Below, in pieces: positions 11,590 to 28,848 of a stretch of DNA of 36,006 nucleotides (position 1 is the first letter of the stretch; every line of letters starts with the position of its first letter). The notes beneath the pieces are model-generated. The model was not told the DNA's origin and searched no databases. It saw nothing but the letters and a program-made list of their open reading frames with translations. The position numbers were made by a program, and so were the translations under genes. Location of the stretch: positions 1 to 36,006 of the forward strand of contig NZ_BBPQ01000082.1 of assembly GCF_000787855.1 (NCBI RefSeq). The letters run 5' to 3'. Source of the stretch: Streptacidiphilus anmyonensis. GTDB lineage: Bacteria > Actinomycetota > Actinomycetes > Streptomycetales > Streptomycetaceae.

Positions 11590-11877
11590 GGACGGCGGCT
11601 CCCCCTTGCGTCGTTGACGGTTTGTTGATCAACGGAACAAGGGGAATCTAGACCTTTGCCGCGGCCACGTCACGAGTGCGCGCTGTGGCGGGGTCGTGCA
11701 GATGTGCTGGGGGAGCCCGCGATCGGGGCGGGCGCGGGATGGACGCTCCCTTGATTGGGGCATTGGTCTAGTCCAAGCTGATCGTTGACGAAGTCTCTGC
11801 TGAGTCGGCCGCGCACGGCCGCTGGGCCGTCGCCGGTCGTGATCGACCGGTCGCGGTCGTCGGATGAGGGGGATGCC
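11590..11877. promoter_or_regulatory. Divergent control region, symporter operon / SARP gene
   Basis: A 288-base intergenic stretch between two divergent transcription units. It contains a dre-like DasR site at 11762-11777, a weaker half-match (GGTCTAGA on the minus strand) at 11642-11657, and a 10-base perfect palindrome GTTGATCAAC at 11624-11633 close to the symporter operon start. No convincing -35/-10 pair stands out in either direction. A purine-rich GAGGGGG at 11866-11872 serves the SARP gene. Confidence 0.5.
11762..11777. promoter_or_regulatory. DasR operator-like site (dre) upstream of SARP gene
   Basis: ATTGGTCTAGTCCAAG matches the dre consensus ACTGGTCTAGACCACT with 11 of 12 bases in the core TGGTCTAGACCA. 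It lies 101 bases upstream of the SARP regulator start and about 170 bases upstream of the divergent symporter operon. The 12-base core is the exact reverse complement of the core at 34107-34122. The match is seen; binding is inferred. Confidence 0.6.
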
Positions 11878-14800
11878 ATGTCAGAGAGGGAGTCGGCCGG
11901 TGGACTTCCCCGCGGAGGTCCGGCGGGCGAGCCGGGGCCGTTCGGCGCACGGCTCCAGTCGTTCCGCCGACGGGCAGGGCTCAGTCAGGAGGACGCCGCC
12001 TCCCGGGCCGGGATCAGCACCCGGGCGCTGCGCGACATCGAGCGAGGCCGGGTCCAGCGGCCCCAGCCGCGCACCCTCGAGCGCCTGGCTGAGGCCCTGG
12101 GGCTCACCGGAGACGAGCTGGCCGAGCTGCTGGCCGTCGCCCGCACCGGGCCGCCGCGCGGCGCCGGCCGGCCGCGTCTGCTGATCCTCGGCCCGCTCTC
12201 CCTCCAGCGCGGCCAGGCCCCCGTCCCGGTCACCAGCCCGATGTTGCGCCGCCTGCTCGGGCTGCTGGCGCTCAAGCACCCCGAGCCCACCACCCAGCGG
12301 GAGATCACCGACACCCTCTGGCCGTCGGGGCCGCCCAGTTCCCACCAGAGCCTGATCCACACCTACGTCAGCCAGGTCCGGCAGCTGTTGGAACCGGGCG
12401 GTCCGCGGACGGAATCGGGTGGCTCGCGGACCATCCCGCCGCCGACCGTGCTCCGGACGCCCACCGGCTACCGGCTGGAGGCGTCCCGGAACCAGATCGA
12501 CCTCGGCCTCTTCGACGAACTGCTGGTCCAGGCGACGCGTCTGCTCCGCGCGCCGGATCCCGGGGCGGCCTACGAGGCGCTGGCGCAGGCGCTGCGGTGG
12601 TGGCGCGGTCCGGTGCTCGCGGACGCGGACCCGGCGCTGCGCCAGCATCCGGCCGCGGTGGCGGCCAACGAGCGGCGTCTCAAGGCGGTGCAGCTCTTCG
12701 CCGACACGGCACTGCTGCTGCGCAGACCCGAGGAGGCCGTCCCGGTGCTGTGGGACCTGGTGACCGCCGAGCCGCTGCACGAGGGCCTGCACGCCCGGCT
12801 GATCCGCGCCCTCGCCAGCTGCGGCGAGCAGGCCGCCGCGCTGGGCGTGTTCAGCCGGCTGCGCGACCGGCTCGACGAGGAGCTCGGCATCGCGCCCAGC
12901 GCGGAGGTCCGGGAGGCTCACCTGGCGGTGCTGCGTCAGCAACTGCCCCTGGCGCAGCGCCCCGTCGATCCCGTCGATCCCTTCGGGCCCGCCCGTCCCG
13001 CCCGTCCTGTCCGTCCCGTCCGTCCCGCGTCGGCCGACCGCACGCCCGCGACGCACTCGACGGCGGGCCCGTTCGTCGATCCGCTCACCCACCCGCTCGA
13101 CGGCCCCCTCGTCGATCCGCTGACGGACGCCCTCGTCGGTCCGCTCGGCGGTCGGGCGGCCGGCCCCCTCGGGGGTTCGTCGACAGCCCTGCTCGCCGGT
13201 CCGATGACGGGCAGTCCGCTCCCGGCGCAGCTGCCCGCCAGAGCCGGCGCCCATGTCGGGCGGCGACCGCAGATGGAGGAGCTGGACGAGCTCGTCTCGC
13301 CCGACCCGGCCCGGCGCTCGCACGTGATGGCGCTGGTCGGCGCGCCCGGGGTCGGCAAGACCGCCCTCGCCATGCACTGGGCGCACGCGCGTCGCGAGCA
13401 CTTCGAGGACGGGCAGCTCTTCGTCGACCTGCGCGGCCACTCCCCGCTTCCGACGCTGCGTCCCGGCGACGTCCTGGGACAGTTCCTCCGGGCCCTGGGC
13501 GTCCCGCCCGACCAGCTGCCCGCGGACGAGGACGAGGCCGCGGCGCTGTACCGGACGCTGCTCGCCGACCGGCAGATGCTCATCGTGCTCGACAACGCGC
13601 GCGACGCCGAGCAGGTCAGGCCGCTCATCCCGGGCGCCCAGGGCTGCGCGGTGCTGATCACCAGCCGCAGCCGGCTCGCCGGGCTGGTCGCGAGCGACGG
13701 GGCCCGACGGCTCGGCCTGGACGTGCTCGACCCGGACGAGGGCCGCCAGCTGCTCGGCAGCACGATCGGCGGCTGCCGGGTCGCGGCCGAGGAGGATGCG
13801 GCCCGCAGGCTCGTGCAGGCGTGCGGCGGGCTGCCGTTGGCCATCCGGATCGCGGGCGCCAATCTGCTGGCCCGCAACGCCGGCATCGCCGACTTCTGCG
13901 CCGAGCTGACGGGTGACGACGTGCTCAGTCGGCTCCACGTCGAAGGGGACCGTCGCTCGACGGTGCGCGCGGCCTTCGACCTCTCCTACCGCGCGCTCCC
14001 GGCTGCCGTCCAGCGGATGTTCCGGCTGCTCAGCCTCATGCCCGGCGCGGACCTGACCGTGGAGGGCGCCGCGGCGTTGGCGGACACGACCCCGGCTGAA
14101 GCGGCGGGACTGCTGCTGAGCCTGACGGACGCCCATCTGGCGCAGGAACGGGCGGCGGGCCGGTTCGGGCTGCACGACCTGCTCCGCTCCTACGCCCGCG
14201 AGCTGGTCGGCAGGGAGGAGACGCACGCCGCCCGGCAGCGGCTCTTCGACTGGTACCTCCACCACACCGACGCGGCGGCCCGACTGCTCTACCCGGCGGA
14301 GCCGGCCGCGAGCCCGTCCGCCGGGAGCCGGTCCGCCGGGAGCCGGTCCGTCGGGAGCCGGTCCGCCGCGGGCGCGTCCGTCGCGGTGCCGCCCTCGGCA
14401 GGGCCGGTCTTCTCCGGCCAGGCCCGGGCCGCGGAGTGGCTGGACAGCGAGCGGGAGAACCTGGCGGGCGCCGTCCTCCAGGCGTCGGGCGCCGGCTTCA
14501 CCGATGTCGCCTGGCGGTTGGCGGAGAGCCTGCACAGCTACCTCTCGGCGGGGAAGTACACCGGTGACTGTCTCAAGGTCGCCACGGCCAGCCTCTTCGC
14601 CGCCATCGCCGACGGAGAGGTGCGCGCCCAGGCCGCCGCCCAGTTGCGGCGGGCCGAGTGCCACCGGGCGCTGGCGAACAACGCGCAGGCCCTGGAGCTG
14701 TTCGGCAGCGGGCTGGAACTCGCGCGACGGGCCGGCTGGCTGGACGGCCAGGCGCTGGCGCTGCGTCGCATCGGCGCGGCGCACCAGGAGAACGGCGCCA

Positions 14801-14991
14801 TGCGGGAGGCCTACGACTACCTGTCCCAGGCCCGTGAGCTGGCCGGCCGCGGCGACGGGCCGCGGACCGCCGCCGACTCCGCGGACCCCGGGCCGATCTG
14901 CTGGAAGCTCGGACGGCTGCGCGAGGCGGCCGAGCACCGTTCGCACGTGGCCGAGCTCGTTCGCGACGGGGAGCCCTGCCCCTCCGGCTGA
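11878..14991 (+). CDS. XRE-SARP-NB-ARC-TPR multidomain regulator
   Basis: A 1037-residue AfsR-like activator with an extra N-terminal helix-turn-helix. Order: XRE-type HTH (about 22-85, RRRAGLSQEDAASRAGIS), SARP winged-helix DNA-binding domain (about 100-200), bacterial transcriptional activation domain (about 210-360), a Pro/Val/Arg-rich linker (360-470), an NB-ARC NTPase with Walker A GAPGVGKT at 488-495 and a Walker-B-like LIVLDNARDA, then a helical/TPR C-terminal region (about 880-1030). ATG 11878 was chosen for the upstream GAGGGGG and the match to the XRE domain start. SARP proteins bind 11- or 22-base-spaced repeats and activate antibiotic clusters. This is the likely pathway-specific activator of the genes that follow; whether it senses a nucleotide or ligand is unknown. 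Confidence 0.9.
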   Translation: MSERESAGGLPRGGPAGEPGPFGARLQSFRRRAGLSQEDAASRAGISTRALRDIERGRVQRPQPRTLERLAEALGLTGDELAELLAVARTGPPRGAGRPRLLILGPLSLQRGQAPVPVTSPMLRRLLGLLALKHPEPTTQREITDTLWPSGPPSSHQSLIHTYVSQVRQLLEPGGPRTESGGSRTIPPPTVLRTPTGYRLEASRNQIDLGLFDELLVQATRLLRAPDPGAAYEALAQALRWWRGPVLADADPALRQHPAAVAANERRLKAVQLFADTALLLRRPEEAVPVLWDLVTAEPLHEGLHARLIRALASCGEQAAALGVFSRLRDRLDEELGIAPSAEVREAHLAVLRQQLPLAQRPVDPVDPFGPARPARPVRPVRPASADRTPATHSTAGPFVDPLTHPLDGPLVDPLTDALVGPLGGRAAGPLGGSSTALLAGPMTGSPLPAQLPARAGAHVGRRPQMEELDELVSPDPARRSHVMALVGAPGVGKTALAMHWAHARREHFEDGQLFVDLRGHSPLPTLRPGDVLGQFLRALGVPPDQLPADEDEAAALYRTLLADRQMLIVLDNARDAEQVRPLIPGAQGCAVLITSRSRLAGLVASDGARRLGLDVLDPDEGRQLLGSTIGGCRVAAEEDAARRLVQACGGLPLAIRIAGANLLARNAGIADFCAELTGDDVLSRLHVEGDRRSTVRAAFDLSYRALPAAVQRMFRLLSLMPGADLTVEGAAALADTTPAEAAGLLLSLTDAHLAQERAAGRFGLHDLLRSYARELVGREETHAARQRLFDWYLHHTDAAARLLYPAEPAASPSAGSRSAGSRSVGSRSAAGASVAVPPSAGPVFSGQARAAEWLDSERENLAGAVLQASGAGFTDVAWRLAESLHSYLSAGKYTGDCLKVATASLFAAIADGEVRAQAAAQLRRAECHRALANNAQALELFGSGLELARRAGWLDGQALALRRIGAAHQENGAMREAYDYLSQARELAGRGDGPRTAADSADPGPICWKLGRLREAAEHRSHVAELVRDGEPCPSG
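14308..14382 (+). repeat. 15-base tandem repeat inside the SARP gene
   Basis: Three near-identical units of GGGAGCCGGTCCGCC (14323-14367) are flanked by one degenerate unit on each side (14308-14322 and 14368-14382). They encode a repeating Ser-Arg-Ser-Ala-Gly linker (residues about 811-835) between the ATPase and TPR parts. Being in frame, copy number could change linker length without disrupting the protein. Confidence 0.85.
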
Positions 14992-15308: not shown

Positions 15309-16379
15309 ATGGAATTCGCGGCACCGACCATACGCCAGACCCTCCAGCAGGGCGCCGAGGTGGACGACTTCGTGGTCGCGCTCTACGAACGCACCGTCGG
15401 CCGTGCCGACTTCAGCCTGTCCGGGCTCGCCGAGGAGCTGGGCGTCCCGCCGCACCGCGCCGAGCAGGCGGTCGGCGTGCTGCGTGAACTACGCCTGGTC
15501 AAGTCGGCGGAGGGCGGCCCCGACCGGATGGTCGCGGTCAGTCCGGACGCCGCCCAGATGGAGCTGCTGGTCCCGCTGGAGCGGGAGATCCTCGAAAGAC
15601 GTCGCAGACTCGCCGGATTCAAGGGGCAGCTGAGTTCTTTCGTGGCGGCGTTCGAGAAGCAGGCCAGGACCCGTGCCGAGCCCGTGGTGATCACCGACGA
15701 CCGGGAGGAGATCGAGCTGCGGCTGCTGGAGGCCGCGCAGGGCTGCACCACCGAGGTGCTGGTGATGCAGCCCTGCGTGGCCCAGGAGACCCGCGAGCTG
15801 CGGCTGGCCCGTCCGCTGGTGCTGGAGGCGCTGCGGCGCGGCGCGCAGGGGCGGATCCTCTACCCGCACACCGCCCGCGGTGACTCCGACACCCGCGCGC
15901 ACATCGGCGAACTCCTGAAGGCGGGCGGGCAGGTGCGCAGCACCAAGGAGGTGCGCGACCGCTTCCTGGTCTTCGACCGGAAGACGGCCTTCATCCCGGC
16001 CGGCGAGGGCGACGCGATCGCCGTGGTCTACCAGGGCGCGGTCGCGGCCTTCCTGGCCGGACTGCACGGCCGGGTCTGGGAGTCCGCCTTCGACTTCGAG
16101 TCCGGCGCGGCCGGTTACGCCGGAACGCTGGAGGACCTGAAGGCGACCCTGCTCGACCTGCTGGCCTCGGGGGCCAAGGACGAGGTGATCGCGCGCCGGG
16201 TGGGCATGTCCGAACGGACCTTCCGCCGCCACGTGGCCACGATCATGCAGGACCTGTCGGCGACCAGCCGCTTCCAGGCGGGCGTGCTGGCCGCGCGGAC
16301 CGGCTTGGTCGACACGGACGCGAGGCCGGCCGGCCTCGCCACGGGCCCCGCCGAGGCGGCCACGGGGAGCGCCGCATGA
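15309..16379 (+). CDS. TrmB/LuxR-type transcriptional regulator
   Basis: A 356-residue regulator with two DNA-binding ends. An N-terminal winged helix (about 25-70, LSGLAEELGVPPHRAEQAVGVL) is followed by a short coiled coil (about 88-118), a TrmB-like effector domain of phospholipase-D-like fold (about 125-270), and a C-terminal LuxR-type HTH (about 275-330, LASGAKDEVIARRVGMSERTFRRHV). This layout is frequent in actinomycete biosynthetic clusters. ATG 15309 aligns with the family N terminus; the upstream in-frame ATG 15051 would add 86 residues of low-complexity sequence. The stop overlaps the next gene by 4 bases (ATGA). The likely second regulator of the cluster; its ligand is unknown. Confidence 0.85.
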   Translation: MEFAAPTIRQTLQQGAEVDDFVVALYERTVGRADFSLSGLAEELGVPPHRAEQAVGVLRELRLVKSAEGGPDRMVAVSPDAAQMELLVPLEREILERRRRLAGFKGQLSSFVAAFEKQARTRAEPVVITDDREEIELRLLEAAQGCTTEVLVMQPCVAQETRELRLARPLVLEALRRGAQGRILYPHTARGDSDTRAHIGELLKAGGQVRSTKEVRDRFLVFDRKTAFIPAGEGDAIAVVYQGAVAAFLAGLHGRVWESAFDFESGAAGYAGTLEDLKATLLDLLASGAKDEVIARRVGMSERTFRRHVATIMQDLSATSRFQAGVLAARTGLVDTDARPAGLATGPAEAATGSAA

Positions 16380-17002
16380 GCAGGTTCGACCAACTGGCCT
16401 CCACCGCCGCGGTCCGCCGGGTCCAGGAGGAGATGGGCAGCGCCACGGCGGCCGCCCGCCGCCTGCGGGAGCCCGCCGACGAGGCCGAGCCGCTCACCGG
16501 CTCCGAGGCCGACTTCATCCGCGGCCTCGACGGCTTCCTGTTCGCCAGCGTGGGCGAGACCGGCTGGCCGTACATCCAGTTCCGGGGCGGCCCGCCGGGG
16601 TTCGTCCACGTCCTGGACGAGCGCACCCTCGGCTTTCTGGACGTCAGGGGCAACCGGCAGTACATCACCACCGGCAACGTGCGCGGCGACGACCGGGTCG
16701 CCCTGCTCTTCATCGACCACGCCCGTCAGGCCCGTCTCAAGCTGTTCGGCCACGCCACCGCCGTGCCGGCCGGCGAGGATCCCGCGCTGGCCGAACTCCT
16801 GCGCTCGCCGCGCACCGACGGCACGGTCGAGCACCTCGTCACCATCCGCGTCGAGGCGTTCGCCTGGAACTGCCAGAACCACATCACCCCCCGTTACAGC
16901 CAGCGCGAACTCGCGGAAGTGCTGGCCCCGGTGCGGGAGCGCCTGGCCAGGCTCGAGCAGGAGAACGCCGCGCTGCGCACGGAGCTCGCCGCGTTCCGCT
17001 GA
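16376..17002 (+). CDS. Pyridoxamine 5'-phosphate oxidase-fold protein
   Basis: A 208-residue flavin-binding split-barrel (PPOX class) protein. The core runs from FIRGLDGFLFASVGETGWPY through DVRGNRQYITTGNVRGDDRV to ARLKLFGHATAV. The C-terminal 30 residues (REREL-like heptads, ARLEQENAALRTELA) form a coiled coil that is probably for dimerisation. Members bind FMN, F420 or haem and are often oxidoreductases or detoxifying enzymes; the cofactor cannot be told here. It is translationally coupled to the regulator before it. It may supply or consume redox equivalents in the pathway, or be a regulator-linked stress protein unrelated to biosynthesis. Confidence 0.8.
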   Translation: MSRFDQLASTAAVRRVQEEMGSATAAARRLREPADEAEPLTGSEADFIRGLDGFLFASVGETGWPYIQFRGGPPGFVHVLDERTLGFLDVRGNRQYITTGNVRGDDRVALLFIDHARQARLKLFGHATAVPAGEDPALAELLRSPRTDGTVEHLVTIRVEAFAWNCQNHITPRYSQRELAEVLAPVRERLARLEQENAALRTELAAFR

Positions 17003-17101: not shown

Positions 17102-17971
17102 ATGGTCAGCGAAACGATCGACAGGAACGACCGGTTCCGGGGAATCCTGGACCGGCTCGCCACCAAGTCGATCGACGACTACTACAACCCGTACCGGCTG
17201 TTCGAGTGGCCGGACCGGCTCGACGAGGACATGTGGTGGATGAGCCCCGAGCTCACCACCACGTACGGGACGAAATGGGCCGAGACGCTCACGCCGCAAC
17301 AGCTCCACACGCTTTCCAAGCACGAGAGCATCAATTTCTACAGCCTCAACGTGCACGGAATCAGGGAACTGCTCATCGAGGTCGTCGGCCGTATTCACAC
17401 CGCCGGTTTCGAGACGCCTTCGGAGTTCTTCCACCATTTCATCGGCGAGGAGAACGAGCACATGTGGTTCTTCGCCGAATTCTGTCTCCGCTACGGCGGC
17501 AGGATCTACCGTCAGCCGGCCGGCGCGGAGGGGGCCGCGCCCTCGCCCAAGATCCAGAGCCTGCTCGTGTTCGCCCGCATCCTGATCTTCGAGGAGCTGG
17601 TCGACCACTTCAACTCGGCGATGGCCGTGGACGAGCGGCTGCACGAGACGATCCGCGGCATCAACCGGATCCACCACCAGGACGAGTCCCGCCACATCGC
17701 CTTCGGCCGCGAGCTGGTGGACCTGCTCCACCAGGACCTCCGGCAGACCGCCACCGAGCAGGAACTCGACGACATCTCCGCCTACCTGCGGCGCTACATG
17801 AAGCACAGCTTCGACTCGCTCTACCACCCGCAGGTCTACCGCGACGCCGGCCTGGAGCAGCCGCACGAGCTGCGCCGGGCCCTGATGGAGTCACCGGCCC
17901 GGGCCGAGGCCGAGCAGCGCACCTTCCGCAAGACCGCCAAGTACCTCGAGAGGACGGGACTCATCCGATGA
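17102..17971 (+). CDS. AurF-like diiron N-oxygenase
   Basis: A 289-residue member of the AurF/CmlI diiron family, which oxidises amines to hydroxylamines, nitroso or nitro groups. The full seven-ligand set can be placed: E75 (KHESINFY), E117 and H120 (EENEH), E164 (FEELVDH), H191, E195 and H198 (HHQDESRH). The E164-to-H191 spacing of 27 equals AurF's E196-to-H223. It is the first gene of a long overlapping operon and is coupled (ATGA) to an amino acid:carrier-protein ligase. That suggests the amine it oxidises is a carrier-bound amino acid rather than a free arylamine. Substrate and final oxidation state are inference. Another possible role is C-hydroxylation, which some family relatives perform. 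Confidence 0.85.
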   Translation: MVSETIDRNDRFRGILDRLATKSIDDYYNPYRLFEWPDRLDEDMWWMSPELTTTYGTKWAETLTPQQLHTLSKHESINFYSLNVHGIRELLIEVVGRIHTAGFETPSEFFHHFIGEENEHMWFFAEFCLRYGGRIYRQPAGAEGAAPSPKIQSLLVFARILIFEELVDHFNSAMAVDERLHETIRGINRIHHQDESRHIAFGRELVDLLHQDLRQTATEQELDDISAYLRRYMKHSFDSLYHPQVYRDAGLEQPHELRRALMESPARAEAEQRTFRKTAKYLERTGLIR

Positions 17972-18804
17972 ACCGCCTGACCGGGAGCGACGGCGCGCCC
18001 GCCCTCGCCATCCTCGGCCCGCAGGCCACCCGGCTGGTCAAGGAGCTCGACCGGGTCTTCGCCGGCTGGGGCCTCGCGGCGGGAGCCGAGGAGATCAGCG
18101 CCCCGCCGCTCTTCCCCGTGACCGACCTGGAGAAGTTCGACGTCTACACCAACTTCCCCCACCTCGCCTTCGTGGCCGGCTCGCTCGACCTGGCGGACGA
18201 CCGGTTCAAGCCCGTGGAGGGCCGGTTCGGCGCGGGCGCGGTGAGCGAGGCACGGTACGGACTGTCCCACGCCACCTGCTACGGCGCGTACCTCTTCCAC
18301 GAGGGCGAGCAGGTCGCCGACGACACCCTGGTGACCCTGGTCAACCGGTGCTTCCGCAACGAGGACCACTACGGCGGGCTGCGCCGCCTCGCCAGCTTCC
18401 AGATGCGCGAGATCGTCGCGCTCGGCGCCTACGAGCACACCCGGCAGGTGCTGGCCGGCTTCACGGAGCGGATCCAGTCCTTCGCCGCCGCCCTCGGGAT
18501 CGACCTGCGCAGGGAGGCGGCCGGCGACCCGTTCTTCCAGCGCGACGACGGCCGCGCCCTGATGCAGAAGCTCAGCCCGGTCAAGTACGAGTTCCAGTAC
18601 GGGGATCTGGCGATCGCCTCGGTCAACACCCACCGCAACTTCTTCGGCGAGCGGTGCGGCATCCGGCTGGAGTCCGGCGAGCACGCCTACACCTCCTGCG
18701 TGGCCTTCGGGCTGGAGCGCTGGCTCGCCGTGCTGACCGAACACTTCGGCGCGGACCTCGACGCCGCCCTGGCCGCCGTGCGCGCCGCCGCCGACCCGTC
18801 GTGA
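17968..18804 (+). CDS. SerRS-like amino acid:[carrier protein] ligase
   Basis: A class II aminoacyl-tRNA-synthetase-like adenylating enzyme without a tRNA-binding domain, 278 residues. Motif 2 is CFRNED (R130, E132) and motif 3 is FGLER (248-251). Three candidate zinc ligands, C104 (HATCYG), E148 (MREIV) and C244 (TSCVAF), match the Cys-Glu-Cys set of archaeal-type SerRS and of the known amino acid:carrier-protein ligases from Bradyrhizobium and Agrobacterium. Those enzymes activate glycine or alanine and load it onto the phosphopantetheine arm of a small stand-alone carrier protein. Here the carrier gene is two genes downstream, with an AcpS-type transferase between. The amino acid specificity cannot be read off. 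The start overlaps the AurF stop (ATGA) and the stop overlaps the next start (GTGA). Confidence 0.88.
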   Translation: MNRLTGSDGAPALAILGPQATRLVKELDRVFAGWGLAAGAEEISAPPLFPVTDLEKFDVYTNFPHLAFVAGSLDLADDRFKPVEGRFGAGAVSEARYGLSHATCYGAYLFHEGEQVADDTLVTLVNRCFRNEDHYGGLRRLASFQMREIVALGAYEHTRQVLAGFTERIQSFAAALGIDLRREAAGDPFFQRDDGRALMQKLSPVKYEFQYGDLAIASVNTHRNFFGERCGIRLESGEHAYTSCVAFGLERWLAVLTEHFGADLDAALAAVRAAADPS

Positions 18805-19205
18805 CCCGTCCCCGGATCGGCGTCGACCTCGTGCCGCTCTCCCGGGTCCGCACGCTGCTGGAGCCCGGCGTCGAGCCGAGGCTCAGGCGGTTCCTCTCCG
18901 CCGACGAGCTGGCCGTGTCCCGGACGCCGGACGGCGCCCCGGACCTGGCCGGGATCGCCGGACGACTGGCCGCCAAGGAGGCCGTCTTCAAGCTTCTCGG
19001 CGCCGTGGGAAGGCCCGTCCCCTGGCAGGGCATCGAGGTCCTGCGCGGTCCCGGCGGCCGCCCCGGGGTCCGACTCTCCGGCGCGGCGGCCGAGTTGGCC
19101 CGGGGCGCCGGGCTCGGCCCGATCGACGTCAGCATCAGCCACGACGGCGGCTTCGCCGTCGCCGTCGCGGCCACCACCTCCCCACTTCCGAAGGGAACGC
19201 CATGA
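18801..19205 (+). CDS. AcpS-type 4'-phosphopantetheinyl transferase
   Basis: A 134-residue transferase that moves phosphopantetheine from CoA to carrier proteins. D9 in RIGVDLVPLSRV and E60 in GRLAAKEAVFKLLG are the magnesium-binding residues of the family, and SISHDGGFAVAVA (111-123) is the conserved third block. The GTG start is fixed by the overlap with the preceding TGA; the stop overlaps the ATG of the carrier-protein gene. It lies directly between the ligase and its probable carrier, so it most likely primes the carrier proteins of this cluster. The housekeeping AcpS is expected elsewhere. Confidence 0.88.
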   Translation: MTRPRIGVDLVPLSRVRTLLEPGVEPRLRRFLSADELAVSRTPDGAPDLAGIAGRLAAKEAVFKLLGAVGRPVPWQGIEVLRGPGGRPGVRLSGAAAELARGAGLGPIDVSISHDGGFAVAVAATTSPLPKGTP

Positions 19206-19435
19206 GCTCCGCAGGCATCGACAAGGTCCGGGACTGGATCCTCGGCCGTCACCCCGACCGCACCGAGCTCGCCGCCGACGTCGACCTCATCGAGAGCCGG
19301 CTGGTCGACTCGCTCGCCTTCGTCGAACTCGTCTACACCATCGAGGACGCAGCGGGCGTCGAGATCGACTTCGACACCATCGACATCGAGGACTTCCAGA
19401 CCCTCGCGACCATCGAGAAGGCGTTCTTCGCCTGA
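19202..19435 (+). CDS. Acyl/aminoacyl carrier protein 1
   Basis: A 77-residue carrier protein. The phosphopantetheine attachment serine is S37 in ESRLVDSLAFVEL. The acidic helices that follow (EDAAGVEIDFDTIDIEDF) are typical. A ribosome-binding site AAGGGAA is 6 bases upstream of the ATG. Stand-alone carriers next to SerRS-like ligases are the known acceptors of the activated amino acid, so this is the best candidate for the aminoacyl carrier. Confidence 0.9.
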   Translation: MSSAGIDKVRDWILGRHPDRTELAADVDLIESRLVDSLAFVELVYTIEDAAGVEIDFDTIDIEDFQTLATIEKAFFA

Positions 19436-19456
19436 TCCCGAGGAGGGGTCTTCACC

Positions 19457-20284
19457 ATGGATGCAGTCTCGTACACCGCCCAGTGGATGGCCGCGGCCCG
19501 CGCCCAGGAGTCGACACGGGACGACGCGCTCTTCGTCGACCCGTTCGCCGAGGACCTGGCCGCGCCACGGGGCTTCGAGCTGATCGACCGCTACGCGGGC
19601 GGCGGCCTGCTGCCGTTCATCTCCATCCGCACCCGGTTCCTCGACGACGCCATCCGCGACGTCCTGGCGGAGAGCGGCATCCAGCAGGTGGTGCTGATCG
19701 CGGCGGGCATGGACACCCGCGCGTTCCGGCTCGACTGGCCGGAGGGCACCGAGGTCTACGAGGTCGACCACGCCCTGCTGATCGCCGAGAAGCGCCGCCG
19801 GCTCGACGCCCTCGGAGCCGAGCCGCGCACCGACCGGCGCGAGGTCTCCGCCGACCTCACCAAGGAGTGGATGCCCGCCCTGGAGGCCGCCGGCTTCGAC
19901 CGCGACCGCCCGACCCTGTGGATCGCCGAGGCGCTGACCTTCTTCCTCACCGACGAGCAGGCCGCCGGTCTGCTGCGCCTGCTCGCCTCGGCCTCGGCCC
20001 CCGGCAGCCACCTGGCCTTCGACATCCTCGGCCGCACGCTGCTGCGCAGTCCGTTCTCGAAGCGGTTCCTGGACACCCTGGCCGCCGACGGCACGCCGTG
20101 GATCTTCGGCACCGACGAGCCGGAGGAGTTCCTGACCGCGAACGGCTGGAAGGTCACCGACCTGCGCGAGCCCGGCCAGCCCGGCGCCGGCGAGGGCCGC
20201 TGGCCCTACGACGTCCAGCCCCGGGACCGCCGCGGCGCCAACCGCCTGTGGCTGATCCGCGCCGAGAGGGCGACGGCTTCATGA
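19457..20284 (+). CDS. SAM-dependent O-methyltransferase, LCMT/PPM family
   Basis: A 275-residue class I methyltransferase of the leucine carboxyl methyltransferase-like family (Pfam PF04072 type), common in actinomycetes. The SAM-binding motif is LIAAGMDTRAFRL (80-92), followed by the acidic EVDH (102-105). IAEALTFFLTDEQ and the hydrophobic C-terminal strand NRLWLIRA are family features. A strong GAGGAGGGG lies 9 bases before the ATG, the best ribosome-binding site in the operon. Family members mostly O-methylate carboxylates. In this context the acceptor could be a carboxylate, an N-hydroxy/oxime or a nitronate oxygen. The stop overlaps the next start (ATGA). Confidence 0.85.
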   Translation: MDAVSYTAQWMAAARAQESTRDDALFVDPFAEDLAAPRGFELIDRYAGGGLLPFISIRTRFLDDAIRDVLAESGIQQVVLIAAGMDTRAFRLDWPEGTEVYEVDHALLIAEKRRRLDALGAEPRTDRREVSADLTKEWMPALEAAGFDRDRPTLWIAEALTFFLTDEQAAGLLRLLASASAPGSHLAFDILGRTLLRSPFSKRFLDTLAADGTPWIFGTDEPEEFLTANGWKVTDLREPGQPGAGEGRWPYDVQPRDRRGANRLWLIRAERATAS

Positions 20285-21255
20285 GCCGTCCGACCGCGGA
20301 CCGCCCGATCACCCTGGAGCGGATCGAGTCGTACCTGCCCGAGCGCTGCGTGCGGATCGAGGAGATGGGTGAGCGGCTGGGCCTGCGCCGGGCCGAACTC
20401 GGCGTGTTCCGGAAGTTCTACGGCCTGGACACGCTGCGCTTCGACCCCGAGCTCCCGCTGCTCGACCTGCTGCGGCCCGCCGCCCGCGCCGCCCTGGCCG
20501 CCCTGCCGGAGGGCGGCCGGGTCGACTACCTGGCCTACGCCCACACCACCCAGGCGGTGGCGCCGGCCGACGTCGACATCGCCCAGTTGGTCGGCGAGGA
20601 CCTCGGCCTCGGCGACACCGAGGCCTTCGGCCTGAGCCACCAGGCCTGCGTCAGCAGCCTGGGCGCCATCGAGGTGCTCGGTGAACTGCTGCGCGCGGAG
20701 GGCGGCGAGGGCGCGTACGCGCTGATGGTCACCGGCGAGCAGGCCTACTCGCCGATCGTCCAGCACGTGCCGAACACCGCGATCATGGCGGACGCCTCGG
20801 CCTCCTGCCTGATCACCCTGGACGGCGACGGAGACGTGGTCCGCTCCTTCGCCGCCCGGACCCTGGGCGAGTACGCCCAGTGGCTGGAGCTGACCGCCGA
20901 GCAGAACACCGAGTTCGGCGAGCAGTACGGGACCAGGATCGCCGAGGTCATCCACCAGGCCCTGACGGAGGCCGGGGTGACGCTCGACGAGATCGACCTG
21001 GTGATCCCGCACAACGTCAACAAGCTCGCCTGGCGGCAGACCATCAAGGTGCTCCAGGTGGCGCCGGAGAAGGTGTTCCTGGACAACGTCCCGCGCTTCA
21101 GCCACACCTTCGCCTCGGACGTCTTCGTCAACTACACCACCCTGCGGGACGCCGGCCGCCTGGTCGACGGCGCGCACTACCTGCTGGTCTCCGTCGGCCT
21201 GGGGGCCACCTTCGGCGCGATGGTGATCACCCACCGGGCGGGGGGCGAGGCCTGA
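20281..21255 (+). CDS. KAS III-like ketosynthase/acyltransferase
   Basis: A 324-residue thiolase-fold protein. The active-site cysteine is C123 in SHQACVSSLGAIE and the catalytic histidine is H244 in VIPHNVNKLA. The third residue of the usual Cys-His-Asn triad is changed: the GN(T/S) loop reads FSHTFASD (273-280), giving His at the Asn position. KAS III-like enzymes lacking the Asn are known to perform acyl transfer to oxygen or nitrogen, or unusual condensations, rather than the normal decarboxylative step. The stop and the next start share one base (TGATG). It probably moves or elongates a carrier-bound acyl unit; which one is unknown. Confidence 0.85.
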   Translation: MSRPTADRPITLERIESYLPERCVRIEEMGERLGLRRAELGVFRKFYGLDTLRFDPELPLLDLLRPAARAALAALPEGGRVDYLAYAHTTQAVAPADVDIAQLVGEDLGLGDTEAFGLSHQACVSSLGAIEVLGELLRAEGGEGAYALMVTGEQAYSPIVQHVPNTAIMADASASCLITLDGDGDVVRSFAARTLGEYAQWLELTAEQNTEFGEQYGTRIAEVIHQALTEAGVTLDEIDLVIPHNVNKLAWRQTIKVLQVAPEKVFLDNVPRFSHTFASDVFVNYTTLRDAGRLVDGAHYLLVSVGLGATFGAMVITHRAGGEA

Positions 21256-21521
21256 TGGAACGCCAGAAGATCCTGACGGTCATCGAGGAGGCGCTCACCG
21301 TCGTCCTGGAGCGCCCGGTTCCCGGGCTGACCGAGGAGACCGCGCTCTTCGACGAGTTGCGCCTGGACTCCCTCGCCGTGCTCGGGCTGCTGATGACCGT
21401 TGAGGAGGCGACCGGGATCGCGGTCGACCCGGAGGAGCTCGACATCGACCACCTGCGGACCGTGCGGTCCTTCGCCGACTACGTCGAGGCCGCGCTCCGC
21501 GATCAGGAGGGGGCGTCATGA
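21255..21521 (+). CDS. Acyl carrier protein 2
   Basis: An 88-residue carrier protein with phosphopantetheine serine S39 in DELRLDSLAVLGLL. It differs clearly from the first carrier (LRLDSL against SRLVDSL), suggesting a separate partner, most likely the KAS III-like proteins on either side. The start ATG shares its A with the TGA before it, and its stop overlaps the next ATG (ATGA). Confidence 0.9.
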   Translation: MERQKILTVIEEALTVVLERPVPGLTEETALFDELRLDSLAVLGLLMTVEEATGIAVDPEELDIDHLRTVRSFADYVEAALRDQEGAS

Positions 21522-22360
21522 CCGGACTCACCGTCCGGGCCGCCGCCGCGGTGCGCTCGCCGCGGGGCCGGGGGCCGGGCGACAGCCCGGCCGCGCTGGA
21601 CTACTACCGCGACCTGCTCGCTCCCTTCGGCGAGAAGCCGGACGAGGAGCTGCTCGGCCGCGGCGCGCACGTCCACCACCGCGACCTCGCGGACCTGCTC
21701 ACCGCCGACGACGGCGTCGGCGCGAGCCGGCCGGACCTGCTGATCGTCGCCCACGCCCTCCCGGACGTGGTGCCGTTCACGGCCGTCGCGCCGTACCTGA
21801 CCGACCGCCTCGGCGGCCGGGCGACCAACTTCGCGATCGGCCAGCAGGGCCTGGCGGCGCCGTTCACCGCGCTGCGCATCGCCTCGGCGTACCACCGTGC
21901 GGGGCGCGCCGCGGAGGTGGTGCTGGCGGTGCTGGAGCAGACCACCCTGCCGACGGCCTTCCCGCTGGGCCGGGAGACCCCGCCCAGCCCGGAGACCCCG
22001 CTGGTCGACTCGGCCGCGGCGCTGGTCCTCGGCGCCTCGGACGGGGACGGCCTCCGGTTCGTCCGGGCGCACTCGGCCGGTTCGGCGGAGGCCGCCCTCG
22101 GCCGGGACGCCCTGGGCCGTGACCTCGGGGAGGACGGCACGCTGCTGGTGCTGGGCCCCTGGGTCACCGAGCCCGTCCCGGAGCACTCCACGCTGCATCG
22201 GGCGGCCCCGGGCGGCTACTGCACCAGCCTCTGGCTGGAGCTGGCCGACCACTGGCAGGAGTGGCGGCGCGACCACCGGCGGATCGTGTTGTGCGACACC
22301 GATCCGCGTTCCGGCCGCAGCCACGTGGCGCTCTTCGAAGGGACGGCGGGAACACGATGA
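21518..22360 (+). CDS. KAS III-fold protein lacking the catalytic cysteine
   Basis: A 280-residue thiolase-fold protein. PDLLIVAHALPD (72-83) and FAIGQQGLAAPFTALRIASAY (105-125) align with the KAS III region around the nucleophile, but the expected Cys is Leu112 (QQGLAAP). VDSAAALVLGAS (163-174) is the conserved mid-protein block. Without the nucleophile it cannot form an acyl-enzyme, so it may pair with the intact KAS III-like protein as a chain-length-factor-like or PqsB-like subunit, or act as a carrier-protein-binding partner. It overlaps both neighbours by ATGA. Confidence 0.75.
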   Translation: MTGLTVRAAAAVRSPRGRGPGDSPAALDYYRDLLAPFGEKPDEELLGRGAHVHHRDLADLLTADDGVGASRPDLLIVAHALPDVVPFTAVAPYLTDRLGGRATNFAIGQQGLAAPFTALRIASAYHRAGRAAEVVLAVLEQTTLPTAFPLGRETPPSPETPLVDSAAALVLGASDGDGLRFVRAHSAGSAEAALGRDALGRDLGEDGTLLVLGPWVTEPVPEHSTLHRAAPGGYCTSLWLELADHWQEWRRDHRRIVLCDTDPRSGRSHVALFEGTAGTR

Positions 22361-23727
22361 CCACGGTCAACCAGACGACGATCACCCTGGACCGCGCGCG
22401 GGCCGGGACCGGACCGGCCACCTGGGGGCAGCGGGCGATCTACGGGGTCGTCACCCGGCTGGGCGACGACGCCCCCAGGTACAACCTGCCGGTCGAGCTC
22501 CCCGTCACCCCGCCCCGGCCCGTGTCCCGCGTCCTCGCGGACCTGCGGGAGCTGCTCTGGCTCCACGACAGCCTGCACACCCGGCTGCTGTCGGACGGCG
22601 GGGACGGGCTGGAGCAGGTGGTGGACGCCGGCGGTGAGCTCCCGGTCGAGGTCAGGGAGTGCGCCGTGGCCGACGCCGCGACGGTCGGCTCCGGCCTGCT
22701 CGCGGAGTTGGCGGGGCGCTCCTTCGACCATGCGCGGGAGTGGCCCCTGCGGGTCGGCCTCGTGGTGTGCGAGGGCTCGGTCCACCGCCTGGTGCTGACG
22801 GGGTCGCACACCGCGATGGACTACTGGGGGCTGGGCCGGCTCCTCCGCGACCTGCGGTCGATCGAGTCGGGGGAGTCCGCCGAGTCGCTGCGCCTGGCGC
22901 ACCCCTCCCAACAGCCGCTGGAGGCCGCGGAGTTCCAGGCGTCTCCGCTCGGCCGGCGCCGGGACGAGGCAGCCCGCCGCTACTGGTGCGACCAACTGAC
23001 CGCCGGGCCCCGGCGGATATTCAACGAGCCCGCGGCCCCCGAGCTGGAGGCCGATCCGGACCGGCTCTTCCCCAACGCGCTGCTGTGCTCGCCCGCGCTG
23101 GCGGTCGCCGTCGGTCGGGTCGCGGAGGAGCTGGAGGTGAGCGACGCCGCCGTGCTGCTGGGGGCGGCCTCGCACCAGCTCGCCCGGATGTCCGGGAGCA
23201 GCGACGTGCTGTTCCAGGTCGTGGTCGGCAACCGGTTCCAGCCCGCCGCCGCGGCGGCGGTCAGCACCGTGGCGCAGGAGGCCCTGTTCCGTCTCACCGA
23301 CGCGGACCGGGACTTCGGGGACGCGGTCCGTCGGACGCGGTCCGTCGCCTTCAACGCGTTCCGCCATGCCGCCTACGACAAGTGGGCGTTGGACCGGGAG
23401 GTGGCGCGGCTGGTCGAACGGGGCGAGGCGGCCGACCACTCGTACTGGTGGAACGACACCCGGGACCCCGCGGTGGGGCCGTTCGACGGCGTCGAGCGGC
23501 CACGGGCCGCGCTGAGCGAGCTGATCGGCCTGACCGAGCTGAGCTGGCCGACGCAGTTCCCGCGGCGCGTGAACGTCTCGATGGCGGTGGACGTGCTGAC
23601 CGCTCCCGGCGCCCTGGCCCTCGCGATGACCGCCGATCCGGCCGTGCTGAGCCGCGAGGGGATGGAGCGGTTCATGCGCGGGGTCGAGAGGCTGGTCGTC
23701 GCCGAGGCGATCGCGCTGGGGGACTGA
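22357..23727 (+). CDS. Stand-alone NRPS condensation-domain protein
   Basis: A 456-residue protein with the condensation fold. The active-site HHxxxDG motif reads SHTAMDY (150-156): the catalytic second histidine H151 and the structural Asp D155 are kept, while the first His and the Gly are lost. Nothing else (no adenylation or carrier domain) is attached. Free-standing condensation domains join a carrier-bound acyl group to an amine or alcohol, often soluble. Here it may release the modified aminoacyl or acyl group as an amide or ester. ATG 22357 is fixed by the ATGA overlap; the in-frame extension to 22261 is inside the upstream gene. The stop and the next start share one base (TGATG). Confidence 0.8.
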   Translation: MTTVNQTTITLDRARAGTGPATWGQRAIYGVVTRLGDDAPRYNLPVELPVTPPRPVSRVLADLRELLWLHDSLHTRLLSDGGDGLEQVVDAGGELPVEVRECAVADAATVGSGLLAELAGRSFDHAREWPLRVGLVVCEGSVHRLVLTGSHTAMDYWGLGRLLRDLRSIESGESAESLRLAHPSQQPLEAAEFQASPLGRRRDEAARRYWCDQLTAGPRRIFNEPAAPELEADPDRLFPNALLCSPALAVAVGRVAEELEVSDAAVLLGAASHQLARMSGSSDVLFQVVVGNRFQPAAAAAVSTVAQEALFRLTDADRDFGDAVRRTRSVAFNAFRHAAYDKWALDREVARLVERGEAADHSYWWNDTRDPAVGPFDGVERPRAALSELIGLTELSWPTQFPRRVNVSMAVDVLTAPGALALAMTADPAVLSREGMERFMRGVERLVVAEAIALGD

Positions 23728-24803
23728 TGACCACGCGCTATGCGGGCATCGCCTGGACCGGTGCGGGCTACCGGGTCGACGTCGTGGACGGCGCGGGCGG
23801 CCGGGTGGCGGAGCCGAGCAGTTGGGGCGCCGCCGAGGTGGCCGAACTCATCGCCTGGCTCAGGGGCCTGGACCACGGGCAGGCGCCCGCCGTGGTCCTG
23901 GACAGCACCAACGGGCTGCTCGACGGCCCGATGACGGCGGCCGGTCTGGAGGTGTACCGGGCCGACCCCTGGCTGCTGCCGCCCCGGCCCCGCTTCGGCT
24001 CCGTCCCGGCCGAACGGCTGGCGGAGCAGGCGTGGACCGCCCCCGGCACGCTGGCCCGGGTGACCGCCGAGGGAGGCAGCCTGACCGGCCGCGCCGAGGA
24101 GTTCCACGAGGGCGTGCGCCGCGGGGAGCGGACCGTGGCGGAGCTGACGGCGGCCGGGCGCTGCCTGGAGCACGGCCACCGCGGCAGCCCCCGGGTCGCG
24201 CTCACCTTCGACGACGGCCCCGACCCGGTGCACACCCGCCGGGTGTTGGAGATCCTGGAGCGCTACGGGGCCAGGGCGACCTTCTTCTGCGTCGGCCACC
24301 ACGTCGCGGCGCTGCCCGACGAAGTGCGCCGGATCGCCGCGGCCGGCCACGAGGTGGGCAACCACTCCTGGTCGCACCCCTTCCTGCCGGACCTGACGCC
24401 CGACGAACTACGGGAGCAGATCGACCGGACGACGGAGGCGGTGGCTGCGGTGACCGGCGCGGCGCCGACCCGCTTTCGGCCGCCGTACGGAGCGCTGACC
24501 CCCGAGGTGCTGGCCGTCCTCGAGCGGCATCCCGCCACGCTCACGATGTGGGACGTGGACTCCCGCGACTGGACCAGGCCGGGCCCGGAGCGGATCGCCG
24601 CGACGGTCCTGGGGGCGGCCGGGCCCGGCTCGGTGGTGCTGATGCACGAGGGCGCGGGCGACCGCGGCCAGACCGTCCGGGCCCTGCCCTCGATCCTCGA
24701 GGGCCTGCTCGAACGCGGCCTGGAACTCGTGCCCGTGGGCGAACTGCCCGCACCCGCCCGCCACCCCACCCACCAAGACCGCGCGTCACGACCCGAGGGC
24801 TGA
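23727..24803 (+). CDS. NodB-type polysaccharide deacetylase with RNase H-like N-terminal region
   Basis: A 358-residue protein in two parts. Residues about 155-345 are a complete NodB/CE4 deacetylase: TFDDGP (160-165, with D162 and D163), HSWSH (213-217, metal His), RPPYG (251-255), DVDSRDW (276-282) and LMH (305-307). Residues about 1-110 resemble the RuvC/RNase H-like N terminus of IS110-type transposases (YAGIAWTGAGYRVDVVDGAG, then VVLDSTNGLLDG and LEVYRADPWLLPPRP). No signal peptide is seen, so unlike most chitin or peptidoglycan deacetylases it should be cytoplasmic. It may remove an N-acyl group from the cluster product or an amino-sugar precursor. The N-terminal assignment is by pattern only. 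Confidence 0.8.
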   Translation: MTTRYAGIAWTGAGYRVDVVDGAGGRVAEPSSWGAAEVAELIAWLRGLDHGQAPAVVLDSTNGLLDGPMTAAGLEVYRADPWLLPPRPRFGSVPAERLAEQAWTAPGTLARVTAEGGSLTGRAEEFHEGVRRGERTVAELTAAGRCLEHGHRGSPRVALTFDDGPDPVHTRRVLEILERYGARATFFCVGHHVAALPDEVRRIAAAGHEVGNHSWSHPFLPDLTPDELREQIDRTTEAVAAVTGAAPTRFRPPYGALTPEVLAVLERHPATLTMWDVDSRDWTRPGPERIAATVLGAAGPGSVVLMHEGAGDRGQTVRALPSILEGLLERGLELVPVGELPAPARHPTHQDRASRPEG

Positions 24804-24809
24804 ACTGTC

Positions 24810-26138
24810 ATGGAAGAACGCTCCACCGACCACGCCGCGGCGGCGACGTCCGCGCGGATCCAGGACCGGCCCGAGGAGGCGCCGCCGACAGGGGAGGCGG
24901 GGACCGCCGAGGCGGCGACCGGCGCCGCGGCGACCGGCGAAGGGGCCATCTGGTCCCGCAACTTCCGGTACTACTTCACCGCCCGCAGCGCGGGCCTGCT
25001 CAGTTGGGCCATGTTGCCCGTCGCGGTGTCGGCCGGTCTGCTCAGCGGCGGGTACGGCCTGGGCACCGCCGGGTACGCGATGGCCTTCCTGGTGGGCCCG
25101 TTCGCCGGGCTGGTGCTGTTCGGCGGGGTGCTCGCCGACCGCTTCACCGCCCGTCGGCTGATGATCGCCGCCGATCTGACCAATCTCACCGCCCACACGC
25201 TGCTCGCGCTCCTGTTCATCCACGGCATCGACCATCTCTGGCAGCTGTACGCGCTGCTGGTGGTGGCCGGAACCGCCAACGCGATGTTCCAGCCGGGCGC
25301 CTCCTCGACCGTGCCGCTCGTGGCGCGGGACGTGCAGGGCGCCAACGGCGTGCTGCGCACCTCCGAGGCGCTCACCGGGCTGGGCGGACCGGCGCTGGCC
25401 GGGGCCATGGTCGGGCTCGGGGCCACCGGCTGGGTGATGGTGATCTCCGCCGTCGCCTACGGGACCAGCGCGACCTGCCTGTTCGCGCTCCGGCTCGGGA
25501 AGGTGCCCGCCCCGCCCGCCGGCGAGAGCCTGTGGCGCAACCTGGCGGTGGGCTGGCAGGAGTTCCGCTCCCGCAGCTGGCTCTGGGGCGTGATCGTGAT
25601 CTGGATGTTCTACGCGGTGCTCTCCTGGGGACCGCAGCTGTCCGTGGCCGCCAGCGTCATCGTGCCCAGGCACGGAGCGGCCGCCTTCGGTCTGATCAAC
25701 TGTGCGCTGGGCGGGGGCACCGTGGCCGGCGGCCTGCTCGGGATCCGCTACAAGCCCGCACACCCGCTGGCCGCCGGGGCGGTGGCGATGATGGCCTACC
25801 CGCTCTACCCGCTCGGCATCGTGCTCGGATGGCCGGTCTGGCTGCTCGCCGCCGCCCAGGTCGTGGTCGGGGTCGGGATCGGCGTCTGGGGCGTCATGTG
25901 GGCCACCAGTGTGCAGACCCAGGTGCCGGGCGAGGTGCTCAACCGCGTGCACGCCTACGAGGTGGCGGGTTCGGTCGGCATGTATCCGATCGGCAGCGCG
26001 CTGGCGGGCCCGGCCGTCGGGGCGTTCGGCACTGACCCGGTCCTCATGGTGGGCGTGGTGGTCTCGCTGCTCACGGCCTGCGCCCTGCTGGCCGCCCGCC
26101 CGATCCGCACCCTGGGCCGGGCGCCGTCCCGCGCCTGA
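24810..26138 (+). CDS. MFS exporter
   Basis: A 442-residue major facilitator with a hydrophilic N-terminal tail of about 45 residues and 11-12 membrane helices. The loop motif GGVLADRFTARRLMIAADL (residues about 105-123) is the conserved MFS motif A. The overall pattern fits the drug/siderophore exporter (DHA3/EntS-like) branch. It is the last gene of the operon, 6 bases after the deacetylase stop. It likely exports, and confers self-resistance to, the cluster product. A very long hairpin follows. Confidence 0.88.
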   Translation: MEERSTDHAAAATSARIQDRPEEAPPTGEAGTAEAATGAAATGEGAIWSRNFRYYFTARSAGLLSWAMLPVAVSAGLLSGGYGLGTAGYAMAFLVGPFAGLVLFGGVLADRFTARRLMIAADLTNLTAHTLLALLFIHGIDHLWQLYALLVVAGTANAMFQPGASSTVPLVARDVQGANGVLRTSEALTGLGGPALAGAMVGLGATGWVMVISAVAYGTSATCLFALRLGKVPAPPAGESLWRNLAVGWQEFRSRSWLWGVIVIWMFYAVLSWGPQLSVAASVIVPRHGAAAFGLINCALGGGTVAGGLLGIRYKPAHPLAAGAVAMMAYPLYPLGIVLGWPVWLLAAAQVVVGVGIGVWGVMWATSVQTQVPGEVLNRVHAYEVAGSVGMYPIGSALAGPAVGAFGTDPVLMVGVVVSLLTACALLAARPIRTLGRAPSRA

Positions 26139-27018: not shown

Positions 27019-27159
27019 CGCGGGTTCTCGTTCCTTTCGGTGGGGTCCTCGCCTGGTCGCCGGTGCCGTCGTCGGCACGCTGCTGCGGGACCAATGGTGG
27101 CACGTCGGCGCTGCCCGGCAAGCACTGCCGAGACTACTGGCAGCCCGGACGGCGACGGC

Positions 27160-28737: not shown

Positions 28738-28804
28738 GGTTCCTTCCCTCACAGGGTTCTTGATGTGCCCCTGACAGGGCTTTGAGGCGTCGGAGGGCGA
28801 TGGC

Positions 28805-28848
28805 GGGGTGCGCGGGGCGGGCTGAGCGGGACTCGCGCCGCGCACCCC
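28805..28848 (-). terminator. Hairpin between dasC and dasD
   Basis: An 11-bp perfect stem (28805-28815 with 28838-28848) sits just after the dasC stop at 28856. It may lower transcription into dasD or protect the dasABC transcript end. Confidence 0.6.

Follow-up and report, generated by a model that had tools for sequence, protein, structure and literature searches.

A probable O-methyl nitronate biosynthetic operon in Streptacidiphilus anmyonensis combines a front-end cassette common to many actinobacteria with a back-end containing a paired KAS III-fold system

Introduction

To our knowledge, very few natural products carry an O-methyl nitronate, a group that needs only mild conditions to react with alkenes. 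Work by He and Ryan in 2021 reportedly described a glycine-derived nitronate that is made by a diiron oxygenase and is then either O-methylated, in the enteromycin carboxamide pathway, or denitrified. Here we analyze a 36,006-nucleotide stretch of DNA from Streptacidiphilus anmyonensis (contig NZ_BBPQ01000082.1, positions 1 to 36,006; hereafter the window) and describe within it an operon of oxygenase, ligase, carrier, and methyltransferase genes that is probably an O-methyl nitronate biosynthetic cluster.

Among described systems, the akazaoxime/A-76356 cluster of Micromonospora humidisoli is a close counterpart. According to Komaki et al. (2023, PMC9967187), it encodes an adenylation-peptidyl carrier protein (A-PCP; _56660), a ketosynthase-acyltransferase-ketoreductase-acyl carrier protein (KS-AT-KR-ACP; _56670), a free ACP (_56710), a nitronate O-methyltransferase (_56720), and a diiron oxygenase; its precursors are glycine, leucine, and propionate, and it yields both akazaoxime, an aldoxime, and A-76356, an O-methyl nitronic acid. 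The cluster resembles the window in its diiron oxygenase, free ACP, nitronate O-methyltransferase, and (as proposed for the window) glycine origin, and it differs in carrying an A-PCP, a condensation (C)-A-PCP, and a type I polyketide synthase (PKS), where the window instead has a KAS III-fold enzyme with a cysteine-less partner, a second carrier protein, a free C domain, and a deacetylase. The enteromycin carboxamide pathway of Streptomyces achromogenes var. streptozoticus is similar to that proposed for the window in that a glycine-derived nitronate is reportedly made by a diiron oxygenase and then O-methylated (PMC9967187, PMC11035981). In the same organism, PMC11035981 has the nitronate either O-methylated into enteromycin or denitrified by a nitronate monooxygenase (NMO).

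Results and Discussion

A compact operon with an AurF-type oxygenase and a SerRS-like ligase

The genes at 17102-26138 on the + strand form one operon in which most neighboring genes overlap by 1 to 4 bases:

17102..17971, + strand, AurF-type diiron N-oxygenase (AurF) with seven ligands (Pfam, alignment)
17968..18804, + strand, SerRS-like amino acid:carrier protein ligase (NCBIfam, PDB match, alignment)
18801..19205, + strand, AcpS-type phosphopantetheinyl transferase (Pfam, NCBIfam)
19202..19435, + strand, carrier protein 1 (CP1), Ser37 in DSLAFVEL (Pfam PP-binding; motif read by eye)
19457..20284, + strand, LCMT-type S-adenosylmethionine (SAM) methyltransferase (Pfam LCM methyltransferase, E 1.5e-48; NCBIfam)
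20281..21255, + strand, KS3, a KAS III-fold enzyme with invariant C123, H244, and H275 (Pfam, alignment, predicted model)
21255..21521, + strand, carrier protein 2 (CP2), Ser39 in DSLAVLGL (Pfam PP-binding, NCBIfam; motif read by eye)
21518..22360, + strand, cysteine-less KAS III-fold partner of KS3 (alignment and predicted model; no Pfam family)
22357..23727, + strand, free-standing condensation domain with SHTAMD at the HHxxxD motif (Pfam, E 1.2e-14)
23727..24803, + strand, CE4-type polysaccharide deacetylase (Pfam, E 1.6e-38)
24810..26138, + strand, major facilitator superfamily (MFS) exporter (Pfam, E 2.7e-16)

Pfam detected no AMP-binding (adenylation) domain among the operon proteins, and a nonribosomal peptide synthetase module is likewise missing. 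An initial annotation made from the DNA letters had listed this gene set; every gene that it named is present on the + strand, mostly overlapping its neighbors, and the families agree with those assigned by Pfam and NCBIfam. Its finer readings, namely, seven diiron ligands in AurF, a SerRS-like ligase without tRNA-binding domain bearing Cys104/Glu148/Cys244, and one intact and one dead KAS III-fold protein, also hold in the alignments and models described below.

The window AurF matches Pfam PF11583 over nearly its whole length (E 2.7e-34), and residues E75, E117, H120, E164, H191, E195, and H198 are invariant in all nine aligned sequences (the window and eight relatives), so that both the family match and the seven ligands of AurF-type N-oxygenases, including the extra His, are present. 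Its ExxH and HxxxExxH spacings resemble those printed for the N-oxygenase Dob3 in PMC13061610, and a sequence search with the window AurF found no AurF chain among solved structures. From its gene context only, the enzyme would be expected to oxidize an amine nitrogen; nitronate formation is among the reactions known for this oxygenase family in PMC12154687, which cites He and Ryan. The window genome holds further AurF-family matches at C98:49326-50194 and C118:50916-51728, one of them split across two frames.

The ligase (278 amino acids) matches Bll0957 (PDB 3MEY) over residues 36 to 272 (E 5.1e-24) and the NCBIfam amino acid--[ACP] ligase model PRK07080 at E 3.1e-32 (112 bits, under the curated cutoff of 357), while its score against the Pfam class II core (27 bits) falls just under the cutoff of 29.3. 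C104, E148, and C244 align with the Cys/Glu/Cys of Bll0957, which we take to be active-site zinc ligands in ligases of that type and on that basis assign as putative Zn ligands here. All 100 aligned ligases have the same residues at these three positions and at R130, E132, and others, the set including distant ligases without AurF and a few duplicate records; the AurF-less ligase loci (L016, L017, L022, and L024-L030, where L numbers denote loci and G numbers genomes, G000 being that of the window) served for residue checks and context only. The protein has the class II synthetase core without the tRNA-binding arm and the Cys/Glu/Cys positions, as Bll0957-type ligases do. It would most likely load glycine on CP1, judging from sequence and context; alanine, glycine, and serine are given for carrier ligases of this superfamily in a review table, with serine in the SerRS row (PMC9437257).

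A front-end cassette conserved in many actinobacteria

We scanned one genome per species (84,980 species) with a profile built from nine AurFs, all of them beside ligases, requiring two AurF peptide motifs, and surveyed the best 80 of 196 stretches encoding an AurF relative, weaker relatives not being counted; gene boundaries were set by a home-made gene caller. The loci are related rather than independent, and some records are duplicated (L012/L041, L013/L043). In this clade a ligase lies near AurF on the same strand, 0 to 325 bases downstream, at 79 of the 80 loci (all but L073), CP1 at 79 (all but L042, on a 7.9-kb contig), LCMT at 76 (missing from L042, L068, L073, and L097), and AcpS at 72. 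The adjacency of AurF and ligase is beyond chance: an AurF as close as those of the window clade occurs in only 4 of 296 genomes of the class, and 16 of 61 genomes contain a ligase, however distant (own genome counted in both), yet the ligase stands beside AurF at 79/80 loci. Distances among AurFs, ligases, and LCMTs run parallel over 78 rows (r = 0.92 to 0.94, with no control for the species tree). AurF-ligase-carrier-LCMT is a conserved front-end common to many actinobacteria, and the diiron oxygenase, carrier, and methyltransferase expected of a glycine-nitronate cassette stand in one unit in the window. One contig filed as Candidatus Melainabacteria (L067) carries the cassette at 51 to 69% identity, perhaps through misbinning of a metagenome assembly.

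Two groups of loci give clues to the product. L072 (Micromonospora qiuiae) encodes an A-PCP, a KS-AT-KR-ACP, and a beta-lactamase-like protein, then AurF, ligase, AcpS, carrier, and LCMT, an order equal within one gene to the published akazaoxime/A-76356 order (PMC9967187); the comparison is of order only, not of the AKA109 genes. The LCMT of L072 follows the carrier, as in the window, and by its position, within one gene, it may correspond to the published nitronate O-methyltransferase. Three further loci (L069, L070, and L079) share this layout with the cassette, AcpS not being called in L079 and the domains being Pfam-checked for L072 only.

The second group comprises the eight loci at which an AurF of this clade has no LCMT (L018-L021, L023, L068, L073, and L097; the cut contig L042 is excluded). 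At three of them (L018, L020, and L021, in G026, G036, and G003) an NMO (PF03060; family confirmed by Pfam for the G026 gene) directly follows the ligase, which fits a nitronate as the carrier-bound product. No in-frame NMO homolog was found in the LCMT loci examined, out-of-frame matches at L012 and L041 being set aside as frame artifacts. Like nitronate denitrification cassettes, these three loci combine AurF, SerRS-like ligase, and carrier; unlike the window, they have NMO in place of LCMT. The gene pattern would thus fit, and mirror, the published fork between O-methylation and denitrification of glycine-derived nitronates.

Homology, co-conservation, and comparable pathways in the literature point the same way, and we regard a front-end that would convert carrier-bound glycine to an O-methyl nitronate warhead as very likely. 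The initial annotation had suggested such a warhead (a carrier-bound amino acid, N-oxidized by AurF and O-methylated by LCMT to an enteromycin-like methyl nitronate) and had called for a search for co-conserved sets in genome collections; the set recurs as described, with ligase, carrier, and LCMT at 79, 79, and 76 of 80 loci, and the akazaoxime/A-76356 layout and the NMO genes at three of eight LCMT-less loci lend the proposed chemistry support by analogy. The warhead would not be new chemistry, since O-methylated or denitrified glycine-derived nitronates have already been published.

Different back-ends behind the same front-end

The surveyed loci suggest a portable front-end to which five or more different back-ends are attached, in Streptomyces, Kitasatospora, Micromonospora, Amycolatopsis, and others, and many further nitronate compounds are predicted on that account. 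The window layout (type A: KS3, CP2, dead KAS, C domain, deacetylase, and exporter) occurs at 12 of 80 loci, in Streptomyces and Kitasatospora; L043 is an additional type A locus whose C domain-deacetylase-MFS genes lie on another contig of presumably the same genome (G004), and L044, L046, L047, and L060 represent another form, whose C domain is larger and divergent. Type B (KS3, ATP-grasp, BtrK-like decarboxylase, CP2, and dead KAS) accounts for 13 of 80 loci, with an acyl-CoA dehydrogenase in 9 of the 13, and type C, with A-PCP and KS-AT-KR-ACP upstream of the cassette, for 4 of 80; searching these four type C genomes for condensation domains returned numerous matches that could not be placed beside the cassette. 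At 37 of 80 loci a MaoC-type protein accompanies LCMT, some with SAM-recycling genes. Our search of the literature, made by chemistry and enzyme name rather than by producing species and not covering MIBiG, found no description of the type A cluster in print; neither the type A back-end with its KAS pair nor the likely aminoacrylate route of type B was found described.

At L081-L110 (e.g., L087, L096, and L101), the cassette lies near genes named by eye as MetK, adenosine-kinase-like (17 loci), MetH (11 loci), MTHFR, and AhcY, an apparently dedicated SAM-recycling set found with the MaoC protein and a second methyltransferase.

Type B may account for enteromycin itself. The L045 decarboxylase matches BtrK at E ~1e-91 and the best diaminopimelate decarboxylase at 2.3e-48; BtrK is the L-glutamyl-[BtrI] decarboxylase of butirosin biosynthesis. 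The butirosin side-chain pathway (BtrI/BtrJ/BtrK) thus resembles type B, which has a BtrK-like decarboxylase, a ligase with a Pre-ATP-grasp domain, and a carrier, and it differs from the window cluster, which has neither a BtrK-like decarboxylase nor an ATP-grasp gene and in whose genome the ATP-grasp ligase query matched nothing. The type B dehydrogenase resembles acryloyl-CoA reductase and prolyl-PCP dehydrogenase, both below cutoff. Type B occurs, among others, in S. albireticuli, which we take to be an enteromycin producer although a literature search did not confirm this, and in S. achromogenes subsp. achromogenes (L056, another strain than the enteromycin carboxamide producer), where the cassette and KAS pair are as in the window, with ATP-grasp and BtrK-like genes added. 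A likely route would place aspartate or glutamate on CP2, decarboxylate it to an omega-amino acyl-CP2, acylate this with the nitronate, and desaturate the product; with aspartate this would give the enteromycin skeleton as we take its structure to be. The gene comparison offers a gene-level route to the aminoacrylate of enteromycin and a possible new job for the KAS pair.

In all 13 family rows of the condensation protein (the window counted), the Asp and the second His of HHxxxD are conserved and Ser or Ala stands at the first His, so that the protein has the second, catalytic His and the Asp of free-standing condensation enzymes such as SgcC5 and VibH; no match to it was found at 64 of 80 cassette loci within the stretch examined. 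The joining step that the initial annotation gave to this protein is a possible role; that annotation offered none for the KAS pair, the second carrier, or the deacetylase. The type B ATP-grasp query had no match in G000, G011, G035, or G004, and the idea that type A borrows this loader from elsewhere in the genome was accordingly rejected; for the same reason, the CP2 of type A probably has some other means of loading. In G485 and G461, which hold an ATP-grasp match, it adjoins a BtrK-like gene in each case, and the BtrK-like query gave matches at only 28 to 30% in G000. Two loci in the genus of the window (L127 and L131, in G009 and G012) encode KS3, ATP-grasp, BtrK-like decarboxylase, CP2, dead KAS, C domain, deacetylase, and an A-domain gene, the C domain matching at 52 and 48% and the deacetylase at 68 and 69%, with no AurF cassette found within the stretch examined. 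Because these genes stand there without the cassette, the KAS-carrier-C-deacetylase part looks like a unit of its own that is combined with different front-ends. About 150 N-terminal residues of the window deacetylase (23727-24180) have no Pfam match.

The KAS III-fold pair

KS3 keeps C123, H244, and H275 in 24 of 24 sequences and therefore has a Cys-His-His set, as opposed to the Cys-His-Asn of FabH, His275 occupying the FabH Asn position; the second His is presumably as in KAS I/II. Its predicted model (24 sequences; pLDDT 87) aligns with FabH 1zow at Z 33.3 (rmsd 2.9; 299 residues aligned), and FabH, NatS, DpsC, ChlB3, and PqsBC are tied as neighbors, so that structure does not discriminate acyl transfer from condensation. 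The partner protein matched no Pfam family and has no Cys at the active-site position, where hand reading gives Leu112 or Ala113 depending on the alignment (the profile comparison giving Leu112 is weak, with a probability of 6.6). A KSQ-type decarboxylase, first suspected from a conserved Gln, was rejected, Leu112 or Ala113 and not Gln standing at the Cys position. The partner model (22 sequences; pLDDT 84) matches KAS III folds, with Foldseek E values from 3.5e-11 (best) to 2.2e-9 (50th listed), TM-scores of 0.55 to 0.62 on the query, and a VIA Z of 21.2 for the best match, 6kxf_B (rmsd 3.2; 243 aligned), PqsBC, OleA, and others being tied within 1.

KS3 and the cysteine-less protein occur together at 30 of the 30 loci among the 80 that have either, so that, as in PqsBC-type systems, an active and a Cys-less KAS III-fold protein are always encoded together. 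The PqsBC complex of Pseudomonas aeruginosa likewise pairs KAS III-fold proteins (PqsB, we assume, being the subunit without the catalytic Cys), and the models of both window proteins match chains of PqsBC entries; unlike PqsBC, the window pair has KS3 with Cys-His-His, sequence identity to the known pair is 15 to 18%, and the Z scores are tied with those of many other KAS III proteins.

Proposed pathway and alternatives

In the scheme that we propose, AcpS would convert CP1 to its holo form, and the SerRS-like ligase would adenylate an amino acid, most likely glycine, and load it on CP1. AurF would then oxidize the amine on the carrier to a nitronate (nitroacetyl-CP1), which LCMT would O-methylate to MeO-N(O)=CH-CO-S-CP1. 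The KS3/partner pair would take this acyl group from CP1 onto Cys123 and deliver it either to CP2 itself or to a CP2-bound amine, the condensation protein would then move the CP2-bound acyl group to a further nucleophile, the deacetylase would trim or unmask the product or a precursor, and the MFS protein would export the product. This order for the later steps (KS3/partner, condensation protein, deacetylase, MFS) is tentative. KS3 may transfer an acyl group from CP1 to CP2, acylate an amine on CP2, or carry out a Claisen condensation with malonyl-CP2.

Several observations weigh against the proposed pathway. The 79/80 figure for the ligase applies to this AurF clade rather than to AurFs in general, because the profile was built from AurFs beside ligases, and L073 lacks the ligase as well as LCMT. 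Five of the eight LCMT-less loci do not share the NMO: it is not at L019 (G038) or L023 (G025), and no homolog of the three NMOs was found in L068, L073, or L097. The MaoC-type protein of 37/80 loci is not explained by the scheme, the group that LCMT methylates could be an oxime or a carboxyl, and serine in the SerRS row of the review table speaks against glycine (PMC9437257). In the type A back-end, an ATP-grasp loader for CP2 like that of type B was not found in the window genome, and in G004 (an assembly with 10% contamination) the condensation gene is not linked to the cassette, the C domain-deacetylase-MFS unit lying on another contig. Between PKS and ACP, the published akazaoxime order allows one gene fewer than L072 has, and Komaki et al. 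assign glycine to the A-PCP (_56660) rather than to a SerRS-like ligase (PMC9967187). The ligase beside AurF at 79/80 clade loci is a point of comparison with that scheme: because the ligase and free carrier are conserved, our survey suggests that glycine goes on the free ACP in akazaoxime-type clusters, and the A-PCP perhaps takes another unit.

Two alternatives concern the warhead, and we consider each improbable. In one, the cassette would stop at the aldoxime level, AurF giving an oxime or nitroso acyl-carrier and LCMT a methoxyimine. N-oxygenases of this family can halt at 4-electron stages according to PMC12154687, and akazaoxime, from a published cluster with this gene order, bears an aldoxime; the same cluster also yields A-76356 with its O-methyl nitronic acid (PMC9967187), and NMO after the ligase at three of eight LCMT-less loci fits a nitronate and not an oxime. 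In the other, the ligase would load a different amino acid such as alanine or serine, leading to a substituted nitronate or a nitro compound. The superfamily list of alanine, glycine, and serine, with serine in the SerRS row, leaves room for this (PMC9437257), and gene content alone is compatible with another amino acid; the published compounds of such clusters are reported as glycine-derived (PMC9967187).

For the back-end, it is possible, at much the same level as the tentative order proposed above, that KS3 and its partner form a C-C bond between the methyl-nitronoacetyl group and malonyl-CP2, as FabH, BioZ, and PqsBC do, with the condensation protein releasing a beta-keto product onto an amine or alcohol. 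KS3 retains Cys and His, with a second His presumably as in KAS I/II, its structural neighbors include FabH and PqsBC chains, and the pair with one dead member always co-occurs, resembling PqsBC. Among the fold neighbors, ChlB3 (annotated as an acyltransferase) and NatS score equally in Z, and the enteromycin skeleton, as we take it to be, lacks such a C-C bond, though type B, if it makes enteromycin, has the same pair. A more specific version of our scheme, which we judge rather unlikely, casts the pair as an amide-forming carrier-to-carrier N-acyltransferase that would move the O-methyl-nitronoacetyl group from CP1 to the amino group of an aminoacyl-CP2; the products of type A would then be O-methyl-nitronate amides of a new class, made by way of a free condensation domain and without an adenylation domain. 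The acceptor would be beta-alanyl-CP2 in type B, giving enteromycin after desaturation, and in type A perhaps a second glycyl unit that the SerRS-like ligase would also load.

Flanking genes

Three genes recur upstream of most type A cassettes and precede the operon in the window:

11839..14991, + strand, SARP-type regulator with HTH, BTAD, NB-ARC, and TPR domains (Pfam; homologs of 71 to 81% beside type A cassettes)
15309..16379, + strand, LuxR/HTH-type regulator, conserved in type A loci (Pfam HTH_23 and GerE)
16376..17002, + strand, PPOX/PNPOx-type flavoprotein, adjoining AurF in most type A loci (Pfam PF01243, E 1.2e-9; NCBIfam TIGR04025 below cutoff)

The SARP-type regulator is a probable activator conserved in type A loci. 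Downstream, the minus-strand genes after 26248 (GntR, glycosidase, and ABC genes) were rejected as cluster members because the other type A loci compared show no such neighbors; the region 26248-32194 (- strand) encodes a GntR/UTRA regulator and a GH3 glycosidase (Pfam), followed by ABC-type sugar transport genes (by eye). Farther upstream, at 3079-6470 (- strand), lie genes recognized by eye as ribonucleotide reductase subunits, of which R2 is another ferritin-like diiron protein, unrelated to the cluster.

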